In this document: in pieces, positions 53,063 through 57,867 of the stretch | Position numbering within the stretch: position 1 is the first letter of the stretch | Layout: every line of letters begins with the position of its first letter | Origin: Synechococcus sp. RedBA-s | GTDB taxonomy: Bacteria; Cyanobacteriota; Cyanobacteriia; PCC-6307; Cyanobiaceae | Direction of reading: 5' to 3' | Assembly: GCF_024345495.1 (NCBI RefSeq) | Contig: NZ_JAGQBF010000003.1 | Location: 1-64,000, forward strand | DNA: 64,000 bases | Notes under the pieces: model-generated | What the model was told of the DNA's origin: nothing | Seen by the model: only the letters and a program-made list of their open reading frames with translations | Databases searched by the model: none | Program-made: the position numbers and the translations under genes

Positions 53063-54109
53063 GTGCCACCCGACGACAGGAAGGCGGATCGCCAGAGAAT
53101 TCAGCTGATCCTGCCCGTCGCCCAGGTGGAGCAGATCGATGAGCTCTGCAGACAGCTGGGCCACCGCAGCCGCGGTGCCCTGTTGGAGCGGCTCCTGGAG
53201 GATCTCTTCCCCAGCGCTGAGGGTCTGAGCGACGACGCTGAGGGGGAGGAGGCTGAGCTGGAGGAAGAGTTGGATGCCTGCCGGGCCCTGGTGCTTGTCA
53301 CCGGGCTGGAGGGCGACCTGCTCTCGCTCAAGGGCATCAATGACGAACCTGAGCCGGCGGAGCAGCCCGCGCTTGAGCTGGTGACCCGAGCTCCCCAGCG
53401 CGGGCAACCCCAGGAGGCCCGCGAAGCCTCGGGTTCCAGTGGCATCGATCTGCCGGGTTTCGTGCGTCAGACGTCGGCGCGCCTGAAGCGCAGCCTGCAT
53501 CCCCGACCAACCGTTGCCGCTCAACCGCTGCCCGCGGTGGAGGCTCCTGAGCTGGATCAGGCCTTGCTCGCCGCTGATGAGCACTGGCTCAGCCTGTATG
53601 GCACAGCGGCGAATGAGGCGGTGCTGGAGGCCGCCATGCTCTGGCTGGCCCGCGACATCTGGGCCCAGTCGGATCAGGCGGAGGGGCGGCCCTTCACCTG
53701 GGCCTTGATGGAGCAGTGGATCAGTGGCTTCGTGACTGGCTGGCCGCCTGGACCGCCCAGGTTCAGCCGGGTGATCGTCGCTGCCGGGCTGCTGGAGGAC
53801 CCCTTCAGCACCGGGACCCTCACCCTGAGGGTCCCCACCTTGATCCGTCGCTTCGTGCATCGCTTCCGGCGGCGCCGCCAGGGAACGTCGTTCCAGACCC
53901 TGGAGCACACGATGACGTTGCAGGGAGCCCTGAAGGTGCTGGCGCTGCCCACGGCGCCTGGTCACCAACTCAGCCTCAACCAGATCCGCGAGGCCTATCG
54001 CGAGCAGGCCATGAGTCACCACCCCGACTCAGGCGGCAGTGCTGAGGCGATGCGCCGCCTCAACGAGGCCTACCAGTTGCTCAAGGAGCTCTACCGACGC
54101 CCGGGCTGA
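53063..54109 (+). CDS. Protein with RHH-like N-terminus and C-terminal J domain
   Basis: A 348-residue protein. Residues 11-50 (RIQLILPVAQVEQIDELC then GHRSRGALLERLLEDLF) resemble a ribbon-helix-helix DNA-binding fold. An acidic linker follows (SDDAEGEEAELEEELD). A middle region of about 165-290 with no recognised domain contains LDQALLAADEHWLSLYG. The C-terminus (about 300-348) has a J domain with His320-Pro321-Asp322 and MRRLNEAYQLLKELY. It starts at GTG 53063, 21 bases after the DUF3370 gene. A J domain implies an Hsp70 partner such as the DnaK at 4516. The overall function is unknown. Confidence 0.72.
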   Translation: MPPDDRKADRQRIQLILPVAQVEQIDELCRQLGHRSRGALLERLLEDLFPSAEGLSDDAEGEEAELEEELDACRALVLVTGLEGDLLSLKGINDEPEPAEQPALELVTRAPQRGQPQEAREASGSSGIDLPGFVRQTSARLKRSLHPRPTVAAQPLPAVEAPELDQALLAADEHWLSLYGTAANEAVLEAAMLWLARDIWAQSDQAEGRPFTWALMEQWISGFVTGWPPGPPRFSRVIVAAGLLEDPFSTGTLTLRVPTLIRRFVHRFRRRRQGTSFQTLEHTMTLQGALKVLALPTAPGHQLSLNQIREAYREQAMSHHPDSGGSAEAMRRLNEAYQLLKELYRRPG

Positions 54110-55368
54110 GCCGGAGGCCAGGGGCGACGTCATGTGTCGACACATTCGTTGTTTCGTTAGTCTCCTTCCAGACAAGTTATGAGTCCAGCAGTCTGTCTTG
54201 ACTGAGATGCGCTAGCCATTGCTTTGGGCTTCAGTTGACCTGGCGCTACCAGCCCTAGCGCTGGGGTTGCCCTGTGGCGCGCGGAACCGTCCATCGGCAG
54301 GACTGGGACTGGCGCCCGTGGGCTGCGCGGGCGGCTGTGGACCGCTGGATGTGGGCCCGGACCGGCTGCGTTGGTCCAGCCAGGCTTGGACACAGCGTCC
54401 AGGGGCCGTCGCAACGCTCAGATCCCAGTGGTAGCAAGCCTCAGCGATTCTGCGTACCTGCTGTAGACACAGGTACGCGAGTGATTCTGGCTGTCAGAGC
54501 CCCATGTGGTTCTCCTGGGATGACGCCGAATGGGCGACTTTTGGGGTTGATTCACGGCTGGGCCGGGGGCCGGGCGCCGGGCGCACTTGCTTCTTAACCA
54601 TCTCAAATGAGAGGCATATTCGGGCCAAGACTTGGACTCAACCTGGATGAAAGTTTCTAGTTTGAGACGCATAGCGGGTCTTGAAATGGATTCCAAGTGA
54701 GTCAGCTGAGCAACTCTCTAGGGCTGCGTGGACTCACGGCTTGACCTCTGGCTCCGGATCCTCGCTCTCCATTGACTCAGGTCTCCGGCCAGGGCGCGGA
54801 ACTCACCTGATAAATCCTATTTGTCCCGAATAGATCTTGAAATGAGACTTATATCTCGTCCCTTGTGAGATGAGTAAGATCATTCCAAAGGGGCGAAGGA
54901 CTGGCGGCTGCTCATCCACGTTTGTTGCAACTCTGGTAGTTGCCTCAGCTTGGCTGGCTGAGTTTGGGCTGATGGTTGGTTGCGGTCGATGCAGCCGATT
55001 GGCCTGGTTGCTCCCTTGGAGGCGTTCGGGCCGAAGGGCTGGCTGAAGCATTCATCTGTCTTATTCATGTCCATAGACTGGACTCATGCATAGACCAAAA
55101 TGAGACCAATCATCCAGGTCTATTTCCCAGCTCAATCCAGTTTCATCTGATCAGTCCCTCACTGCGCCTGGGTGTCAGCGCAGGACTTCTCGATCGACAC
55201 CGACTTGGTGCTGGACTATCCCCTCCAGGGTTCCATCACCTCCACTCGGAGATCTGCTGGAGTTGCTGGAGCCAATCATCACGGACCATGGCTCAAGTCC
55301 GGGCCGCTCGTCGTCGCCCTGGCCCATCGCTTGGATCTCCTCATTTCCGCTGATTGAGCTCTCGTTCG
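54110..55368. other. Gene-poor, AT-richer region
   Basis: About 1.25 kb with no reading frame that I recognise. Open frames here are short, unlike known families and in several registers. Base composition drops clearly: for example 54841-54900 is about 43% G+C by my count, against roughly two thirds in neighbouring genes. It contains a perfect 9-bp inverted repeat (54452-54478) and a 10-base direct repeat TCTTGAAATG at 54679 and 54835. It borders the truncated RND/kinase pieces and is best read as decayed or acquired DNA. Confidence 0.6.
54452..54478. repeat. Perfect inverted repeat
   Basis: GCGTACCTG (54452-54460) and CAGGTACGC (54470-54478) form a 9-bp perfect inverted repeat around a 9-base centre. 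There is no T run after it, so it is not a standard terminator. It may be an operator or a remnant of an element end. Confidence 0.7.
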
Positions 55369-56922
55369 TCACAGTTCCTGGCGATGACCATGCCGGTGAT
55401 ACACATCACTGACGTGGGCGTGCTCGTGCTCAATCGGTGTGTGCTGATGCTCATGGGCATGCCAATAAGACTGCTGAGTGTTGCCTATGGCCTGCTCATC
55501 CCCAGGGTGGTCGTGGCTGTGGTGGGGGTCGCCGCCGGTCGGATCGTGCCTGTGACGATGGGCATGGCGGAACGCGTTATGGCGATGCCAGTGGGCATGG
55601 TTTTCCTTGAGCAGAACGGCAACGCCGAGCAGCATCAGGGCGGAGGCCATGGCCATGCCGCCAGTGAAGGCTTCCCGCAGCACCAGTACGGAGAAGAGCA
55701 GGCCCACGAAGGGAGCCGTTGAAAACACCACGGATTCGCGCGCCGCACCCAGGTGGCGAAGAGCGAGCAAATCCAGCCAGATCGAGAGGCCATACCCAAC
55801 GGCGCCAATCGAGAGCAACGCCAGAAGAACGGGCCAGGCCGGAAGGGTCTGGCCGGCAGCGAGAGACAGGATCAGCATGGGAACCGAGGCCCCGATCGCC
55901 TTCAGCAGCGCGATCTGAATTGGGTTGCGCAAACTGAGGCGTTGGCTGAGGTTGTTGTCGATCCCCCAGGCCAGACAAGCCCCGCCGATCAGCAGCGTGC
56001 CCTGCAGGGTGGCTCCGTTCAAGGAACCTTCCGTGAGCAGAACGGCACCTCCTATGGTCAGAACAGCAGCGATCAGCCCCTTGCGGCTGAGATGTTCACG
56101 GCCGATCAGCACCGCGATCAGCAGCGTGAACACCGCTTCCAGGTTCAGCAGCAGCGAGGCCGAACCCGCCGTCAGCAGGGTGAGCCCCTGCACCAGGAAA
56201 ATCGGACCGACCATCCCACCCAGAACGGTGAGCCCTAGGAGTGGTGGAAGGTCACGGCGCTGTACCGGTGACTCCGCCTGCTGGCGTCCCACGGCGGCCC
56301 GCACCACCAGCAGCGCCAGGGCAGCTCCGGCGTAAAGCAGGGCCGCGATCATCAACGGCGAAGCTTTGCCGCTGATCACGCTGATCAACGGAGCGCTGAG
56401 CCCGAAGAACATGGCCACCAGGCCACCAACAAGGGCCAGGGGCCGGCCGCTGACGTTGGTGGACACCACAATCAAGCGAGAAATATCTTCCCGGTTGACC
56501 ACATTGGCCCCAAAGCCGTAGTCGATCTTGGCCAGGGATCCCAACGGCAGCATGCTGCCTGCAGGGGTGGCGATCGGTATGGCCCGCAGGGCATCAAGGC
56601 TGTTGCGGGAGTCCTCGGGCAGCATCACCACCACATCGGTGTGATCGGTGCCGTTGCTCACCACCTGCCCCACCGTCTTGCCGTTGAGGGCAATCTCCAA
56701 CGCCTCGGCGAGCTGTTGCATCGTGAGTCCATTGGCGGTGGCGGCCTGGCGGTCGAAGGCGATTTGAACTTGCTGGATCGGCAACTGGGGTTCGAGCTGC
56801 AGATCCACCACCCCCTGGATCGGCTCGATGGCATCCTGCACCTGCTCGCCGATCCTGCGCAGCTCCGCCAGATCGGGCCCGTAGATCTTGATCGCGATCG
56901 CGCTGCGAACCCCCGAGAGCAC
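55369..56922 (-). CDS. In-frame fusion: RND metal-pump fragment, EamA/DMT transporter, His-rich tail
   Basis: A 517-residue frame starting at GTG 56922. Residues 1-161 match the periplasmic part of a CusA/CzcA-type heavy-metal RND pump (LSGVRSAIAIKIYGPDL, VQIAFDRQAATANGLTMQQL, EDISRLIVVSTNVSGRPL). From residue 162 the sequence becomes an EamA/DMT-family transporter of about ten membrane helices (VAMFFGLSAPLISVISGKAS through LMLLGVAVLLKENHAH). Residues 441-517 contain 22 His in 77 residues. The start codon is a valine of the pump, so the real start of the transporter may be internal. Both pump ends are missing. Confidence 0.8.
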   Translation of the reverse strand: MLSGVRSAIAIKIYGPDLAELRRIGEQVQDAIEPIQGVVDLQLEPQLPIQQVQIAFDRQAATANGLTMQQLAEALEIALNGKTVGQVVSNGTDHTDVVVMLPEDSRNSLDALRAIPIATPAGSMLPLGSLAKIDYGFGANVVNREDISRLIVVSTNVSGRPLALVGGLVAMFFGLSAPLISVISGKASPLMIAALLYAGAALALLVVRAAVGRQQAESPVQRRDLPPLLGLTVLGGMVGPIFLVQGLTLLTAGSASLLLNLEAVFTLLIAVLIGREHLSRKGLIAAVLTIGGAVLLTEGSLNGATLQGTLLIGGACLAWGIDNNLSQRLSLRNPIQIALLKAIGASVPMLILSLAAGQTLPAWPVLLALLSIGAVGYGLSIWLDLLALRHLGAARESVVFSTAPFVGLLFSVLVLREAFTGGMAMASALMLLGVAVLLKENHAHWHRHNAFRHAHRHRHDPTGGDPHHSHDHPGDEQAIGNTQQSYWHAHEHQHTPIEHEHAHVSDVYHRHGHRQEL

Positions 56923-56930
56923 CTCATCAC
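56437..56930 (-). pseudogene. Internal fragment of a CusA/CzcA-type RND efflux pump gene
   Basis: About 165 codons of a pump that is normally over 1000 residues. Homology begins at D-E-V-LSGVRS (codon D at 56928-56926) and stops at NVSGRPL (near 56437), where the EamA-like sequence begins in frame. Membrane spans, the proton-relay helix and both pump halves are gone. The fragment cannot pump on its own. Confidence 0.82.
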
Positions 56931-57212
56931 ACCCCCAGCGGCGGGGAGGTGGTGCTGAGCCTGAGCCGGGAGGGGCATCAGGCGCTGCTGCAGGTGAGGG
57001 ACAACGGCATCGGCATCAGCCCTGCCGATCAGCCGCGCCTCTTTGATCGTTTCTTCCGCAGTGATGGGAGGCGCTCCCGCAGTCAGGGCGGCACTGGCCT
57101 GGGCCTTTCCATCGCAGCAGCGATCGTTCGCCGCCATCAAGGGGAGATCACCGTGTCGTCAAAGCCGGGGGCTGGGAGCCTTTTCAGCGTCAGACTGCCG
57201 TTGGCAGTCTGA
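56928..57212 (+). pseudogene. 5'-truncated sensor histidine kinase (HATPase end)
   Basis: Encodes only the C-terminal ATP-binding part of a histidine kinase. It begins HTPSGGEVVLSLSREG (remnant of the N-box end), then DNGIGISPADQPRLFDRFFR (G1 and F boxes), GGTGLGLSIAAAIVRRHQG (G2 box) and SKPGAGSLFSVRLP. The sensor, HAMP and His-phosphorylation domains are missing; the only start codon in frame is GTG 56949. It abuts the RND fragment head to head. Kinases beside metal RND pumps (CusS/CzcS types) are common, which supports a shared origin. Confidence 0.85.
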
Positions 57213-57251
57213 CGAACCTGCAGGGCCTTGTGAAGTCTTTGGCCTAAGAGC

Positions 57252-57746
57252 TCAGCCCTGGGTCTGCATGCCCTGGATCAGATAGTCGAAATAAGGAGAT
57301 GTGCCGGCGGCATCATCGGTGCCCAGCAGGGCCAGGGAGGCTTCCTTCAAGGTGCGCATGCTCTCGACCATGCCCGCCATGGGCACACCGAGGCTGTTGT
57401 ACATCTCGCGGGCCCCGTTGAGACCGATCTCCTGGATCTTCTCGGTGCTGCCGGCCAGCACGCCGTAGGTGACCAGGCGCAGATACCAGCTGAAATCACG
57501 CAGGCACTGGGCCCGTTGTTTCTGGCCATAGGCATTGCCTCCCTGGGCCACGTAGTCGGGTTTGCGGGAGAACAGGAGGCGGGCGGCCTCATCGACAATC
57601 TTTTTCTCGTTTTCCGCCAGGGCGCGGGCCACGCGGATGCGCTGGGCTCCACCAGAGAGGTACTGCGCCATCGAGCGGAGTTCTCCGCCGCTGGGATACC
57701 GCAGCTGATCATCGGCTTGGAGGATCAGATCCCGAACGACGCTCAT
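57252..57746 (-). CDS. apcD: Allophycocyanin alpha-B subunit ApcD
   Basis: A 164-residue phycobiliprotein of the phycobilisome core, a terminal energy emitter passing excitation to the photosystems. [23 protein letters not shown] matches the ApcD-type start, the phycocyanobilin-binding cysteine is Cys81 ([16 protein letters not shown]), and [17 protein letters not shown] and [10 protein letters not shown] follow as expected. The frame extends to 57830 without homology. ApcD rather than ApcA or ApcF is judged from the N-terminus and Cys81 context. It is the clearest photosynthesis gene in the window and is not part of an apcABC cluster. Confidence 0.9.
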
Positions 57747-57867
57747 CGAGGACACCAGTCGCTGGATCACTTTATCGATCCACGAACCCCCCTGCGGCAG
57801 GACGTCTTCAGATGTAACGCCCCTTTGCATCTAGGGTTTGCTCAACGACCTAAGCGCTCCGATTCCC

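Follow-up and report, generated by a model that had tools for sequence, protein, structure and literature searches.

The closest described counterpart of the locus analysed here is the nickel efflux cluster nrsRS-nrsBACD of Synechocystis PCC 6803, in which nrsD has a promoter of its own and codes for an MFS permease whose C-terminus is rich in His (PMC4284471). The cluster studied here shares with it the type of two-component regulator (RppA/RppB, NrsR/NrsS), the adaptor, the HME-RND pump and a terminal gene for a permease with a His-rich C-terminus. However, this last gene, although in the position of nrsD, encodes an EamA/DMT protein rather than an MFS permease, the adaptor beside the pump is short, and most of the cluster has been deleted from the window, i.e. 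the whole stretch of 64,000 nucleotides from Synechococcus sp. RedBA-s that was analysed. What is left includes a reading frame in which a pump fragment is fused to the EamA protein. Residues 2-163 of this fusion are homologous to positions 677-842 of CusA/CzcA-type HME-RND pumps (TIGR00914; ZneA, 4k0e; CusA, 3k07), but only about 15% of such a pump remains, with neither the membrane-spanning core nor the proton pathway. The remainder shares the family domain and the predicted helix bundle of EamA/DMT transporters (PF00892; 5i20, 7paf) and differs from them in its conserved His-rich C-terminal tail and, in the window, in a chimeric helix 1. The locus comprises the following features:

55369..56415, minus strand: EamA/DMT remnant (fusion residues ~170-517) whose native start and first ~22 residues are missing (Pfam EamA, alignments of relatives)
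55372..55605, minus strand: residues ~440-517, a His-rich C-terminal tail that is conserved across the family except for H508Y (homologue alignment)
56410..56416, minus strand: breakpoint B2, junction between sliver and EamA near the ATG codon at 56412; ~463 bp gone relative to G003 (Synechococcus sp. Cruz-7E5)
56412..56443, minus strand: sliver PLALVGGLVA, pump residues ~902-911, first half of the present helix 1 (DNA match)
56436..56443, minus strand: breakpoint B1, 8-base microhomology shared by both pump segments; 219 bp, or 73 pump codons, gone
56436..56928, minus strand: residues ~669-829 of 1039, the middle part of an HME-RND pump of CusA/CzcA type (ACR_tran, TIGR00914, DNA identity)
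56928..56929: breakpoint A, pump middle joined to the kinase 3' end; 4.6-8.6 kb gone relative to relatives
56929..57212, plus strand: 3' end of a histidine kinase gene of RppB/NrsS type (HATPase_c); the sensor part, the response regulator and the promoter are missing
57252..57830, minus strand: flanking gene for a phycobilisome protein, colinear with Synechococcus sp. CS-1329 (G006)

Composition of the fused frame

The fused frame (55369-56922, minus strand) runs for 517 codons from a GTG start and contains no internal stops. Pfam assigned residues 2-160 to positions 666-823 of the ACR_tran profile (E = 5.9e-31) and found EamA in two stretches, the better one at residues 167-296 (E = 3.8e-29), with a score of 102.1 bits against a cut-off of 28.2 (PF00892). 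The EamA/DMT part extends from residue ~167 to ~440, and the His-rich end starts at about residue 442. These assignments confirm the initial annotation in that a pump-like part, an EamA protein and a His-rich end share a single open frame, and its placement of the junction near residue 162 was about right.

DNA comparison with relatives, which resolved the breakpoints to within a few bases, showed that the frame has three parts: pump residues ~669-829, a sliver of ~10 pump residues starting at ~902, and EamA from about residue 23 onward. The three-part join was indicated by a separate pump fragment of Synechococcus sp. Cruz-7E5 (G003:C17) that contains the PLALVGGLVA segment; this fragment itself was rejected as a match across the junction. 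When mapped onto relatives, positions 55369-56421/56425 corresponded to EamA, 56411-56443 to a short pump segment, 56436-56928 to the pump middle and 56928/56929-57212 to the kinase 3' end. The pump match terminated exactly at 56928 in most relatives compared, and the other breakpoints (56436-56443 and 56409-56425) likewise recurred across relatives. DNA identity reached 85-91% between the pump middle and the closest intact pumps and 85-97% between the sliver and a pump segment located 219 bp further downstream in relatives, while the EamA part showed 78-88% amino-acid identity to its closest homologues, which are separate EamA genes.

By sequence, the pump part equals residues 660-816 of ZneA and 682-824 of CusA, a portion of the periplasmic porter domain that excludes the membrane core. 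It scored 105.7 bits with TIGR00914 over positions 677-842 only, compared with more than 701 bits over ~1040 residues for a full-length pump, and presumably has no transport function. The GTG codon at 56922 lies six bases from the breakpoint at 56928/56929 and encoded a Val inside the ancestral pump. This breakpoint and the 5'-truncated kinase gene beyond it, of which the last ~90-95 codons remain on the plus strand, extend the initial picture of the locus.

Relatives with the intact cluster and origin of the fusion

In Synechococcus sp. Cruz-7E5 (G003, L033), genes for a response regulator and a histidine kinase face one way. Three genes face the other: one for an adaptor-like protein of 206 aa, one for a pump of 1039 aa and one for an EamA protein of 372 aa, whose start adjoins the pump stop. 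The two regulators exceeded the NCBIfam cut-offs for RppA (314.8 bits, cut-off 250) and RppB (476.8 bits, cut-off 400), which are synonyms of NrsR and NrsS. This pair adjoins the pump in Cruz-7E5, and only the 3' end of the kinase gene is retained in the window. A second genome (G004) has the same cluster with the kinase gene split by insertion sequences; IS21-like istA/istB genes and another transposase lie inside it (L034, 8975-14398). At the same chromosomal place in CS-1329 (G006), whose flanking phycobilisome region is colinear with the window at 94% identity, 8.6 kb separate the two ends retained here. Compared with Cruz-7E5, ~4.6 kb are gone from the window, encompassing the kinase 5' part, the response regulator, the promoter region, the adaptor and the pump 5' part; a further 219 bp have been lost within the pump and ~463 bp between it and EamA. 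The retained pieces keep the order and orientation that they have in the intact clusters.

The fusion itself was seen in no relative searched. Our survey covered 400 genomes of the family, 88 of which matched at E <= 1e-30, and the fusion occurred in none of their ~60 EamA homologues; it was also absent from 80 further loci of the genome_contigs collection (the best 80 of 268 relatives), where EamA is a separate gene. On the basis of these genomes and loci, a conserved fusion was rejected. The EamA homologues begin at about residue 163, and pump homologues either end at ~165-169 or continue into their own pump sequence, as expected for the accidental junction that the initial annotation had considered. 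A DNA query spanning the junction matched elsewhere in pieces only. In two genomes (G180 and G208), an apparent upstream extension into the pump part showed no pump homology and was attributed to chance.

We therefore consider it very probable (roughly 0.9), judging from these sequence comparisons, that the fusion is a deletion product of an nrs-like metal-efflux cluster rather than a designed two-domain protein. The ancestor would have carried response regulator and kinase genes of the rppA/rppB type and, in divergent orientation, genes for a short adaptor, an HME-RND pump and a His-tailed EamA protein. One deletion would have taken the kinase 5' part and the response regulator along with the shared promoter region, the adaptor and the pump's first ~668 codons. 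Two short ones, of 219 bp at the 8-bp microhomology and of ~463 bp, would have removed most of the pump C-terminal part as well as the EamA start codon, leaving the pump middle, a pump membrane-helix sliver and EamA in one frame. Given a promoter, translation of EamA could then begin at the start of the fusion or at an internal codon such as TTG150 or GTG152/153.

The evolutionary rates, determined from pairwise and three-taxon distances, are compatible with this scenario. On the window branch, dN/dS was ~0.14-0.21 in the pump piece (0.03-0.13 in relatives) and ~0.25-0.39 in EamA (0.14-0.27 in relatives), with wide and overlapping bootstrap intervals. The values, well below 1 in both halves, suggest a recent event and mostly constraint from before the deletion, perhaps with some relaxation. 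A dN/dS below 1 in the pump piece would, however, fit constraint as well, and the fact that both internal joins keep the frame, as expected by chance in ~1 of 9 cases, could hint at selection for a translated product. Synonymous distances differed along the locus: the kinase end is nearest to CS-1329 (dS 0.14), and EamA is slightly closer to a member of another genus (G111, dS 0.25) than to CS-1329 (dS 0.30), a hint of recombination at the locus.

If the locus arose in this way, it is a strain-level deletion scar and does not merit annotation as a new domain architecture; it does illustrate neatly how an operon can give rise to an in-frame 'fusion'.

Fate of the EamA remnant and alternative explanations

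Within a deletion relic, the EamA part may be either dead or still functional. Its native start and ~22 N-terminal residues are replaced by the pump-derived PLALVGGLVA, such that the present helix 1 consists of this segment followed by the EamA-derived MFFGLSAPLISVI; its hydropathy of 2.07 is close to that of native helices (2.21-2.24). AlphaFold2 predicted a continuous long helix at residues 160-186 followed by a bundle, which Foldseek matched to the DMT structures 5i20, 7paf and 5y78 with a probability of 1.00, consistent with a ten-helix bundle built from two EamA repeats. Because a mixed pump and EamA alignment was misaligned, the model was based on EamA rows only, leaving the pump part without alignment support. 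Confidence was low over most of the pump part, very low at residues 94-159 and low again in stretches of the His tail. In the EamA part, the window deviates at 4 of the 87 columns that are conserved in at least 94% of 68 homologues, including one at the junction and H508Y, at a tail position conserved in 67 of the 68.

With a little less than an even chance, the whole remnant is a dead pseudogene whose EamA part is no longer expressed. The cluster promoter region and the native EamA start are lost, and the H508Y exchange affects an almost invariant position. In addition, EamA dN/dS on the window branch is somewhat above that of relatives, albeit with overlapping intervals, and a simple scan of the minus strand (55200-57300) detected no sigma-70-like site, which says little for a cyanobacterium. 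On the other hand, the EamA part retains 347 open codons without a frameshift and most of the conserved residues, and there are candidate start codons in frame. Given that the conserved EamA residues are nearly all kept and that the sliver restores a hydrophobic helix 1, a working exporter may still be made. We put the odds at about even that the locus, if some promoter drives it, still yields a His-tailed exporter of a divalent metal, probably nickel or a similar ion. The more specific proposal that the fused frame or an internally started product is a working His-tailed DMT metal exporter whose helix 1 was rebuilt from a membrane helix of the deleted RND pump appears rather unlikely; if true, it would be a natural case of a transporter that survived the loss of its N-terminus by means of a helix borrowed from its neighbour.

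The joins could also be artefacts of short-read contigs that were misjoined in a genome still containing the intact cluster. The assembly is indeed a draft of 61 contigs, and the initial annotation had named an assembly error at about 56437 as something that would refute its reading. However, the genome contains no other HME-RND pump above the family cut-off. Of the cluster kinase, no more than the last ~95 residues were found, with the N-terminal part missing and other kinases matching weakly, and the adaptor had no match in a search run without a positive control of its own in this genome. Since the assembly is 97% complete, the absence of these parts throughout argues for a real deletion and weakens the case for an assembly error. 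A misassembly would, moreover, require three independent joins within ~520 bases inside a 117-kb contig with colinear flanks, and both the 8-base microhomology at one join and the sliver are features often seen in real deletions. We thus regard it as very improbable.

The idea that EamA acquired the pump fragment as an accessory domain, with all 517 residues under selection, draws on the open frame across three segments, the rebuilt helix 1 and dN/dS values below 1 in both halves, but it is hardly credible for a fusion that occurs in a single genome among the 400 family genomes and 80 further loci, retains ~160 of 1039 pump residues cut in the middle of the porter domain, lacks a signal peptide and the native promoter region and has a truncated kinase at the opposite end of the same scar. 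The suggestion in the initial annotation that the locus might encode a new metal transporter with an extra extracytoplasmic domain is not supported either: the fusion occurs in one genome, and its porter piece is partial, with no signal peptide or membrane segment ahead of EamA helix 1. As the N-terminus of DMT proteins is cytoplasmic, the piece would, if made, be located in the cytoplasm.

The family of His-tailed EamA proteins

The intact His-tailed EamA/DMT family is the part of these results that deserves further attention. We define this subfamily by roughly 20-25 His in the last 70 residues. The family is widespread: 268 relatives were found, of which the best 80 belong to Cyanobacteria, Alphaproteobacteria, Planctomycetes, Actinobacteria and further groups. 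The proteins of these 80 loci have 16-25 His in their last 70 residues, and the tail in the window aligns with them. In cyanobacteria, the genes often lie beside HME-RND pumps. From the tail and this context, we infer that His-tailed EamA proteins are metal exporters, probably for nickel or cobalt; the literature searched contained no description of such a function, and the two intact family members scanned matched no NCBIfam model above its cut-off. EamA is kept in CS-1329, where the adjacent pump is reduced, and in Synechococcus sp. CS-1325 (G128), where the pump is lost, suggesting that it can act alone. In the latter (L076, 534-2500), an EamA gene that has kept its own start directly adjoins a damaged kinase gene, and no pump separates the two, apparently as the result of an independent loss.

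Outside the cyanobacteria, a Novosphingobium locus (L111, 5944-7017) encodes a His-tailed EamA protein; genes for an HME-RND-like pump, a MerR-like regulator and a CDF-like protein lie nearby. Another example of the family among loci L079-L158 is found at L112:5881-6999. Elsewhere in the window, the 348-aa product of a plus-strand gene at 53063-54109 unusually pairs an N-terminal ribbon-helix-helix (CopG) domain with a DnaJ domain at its C-terminus.
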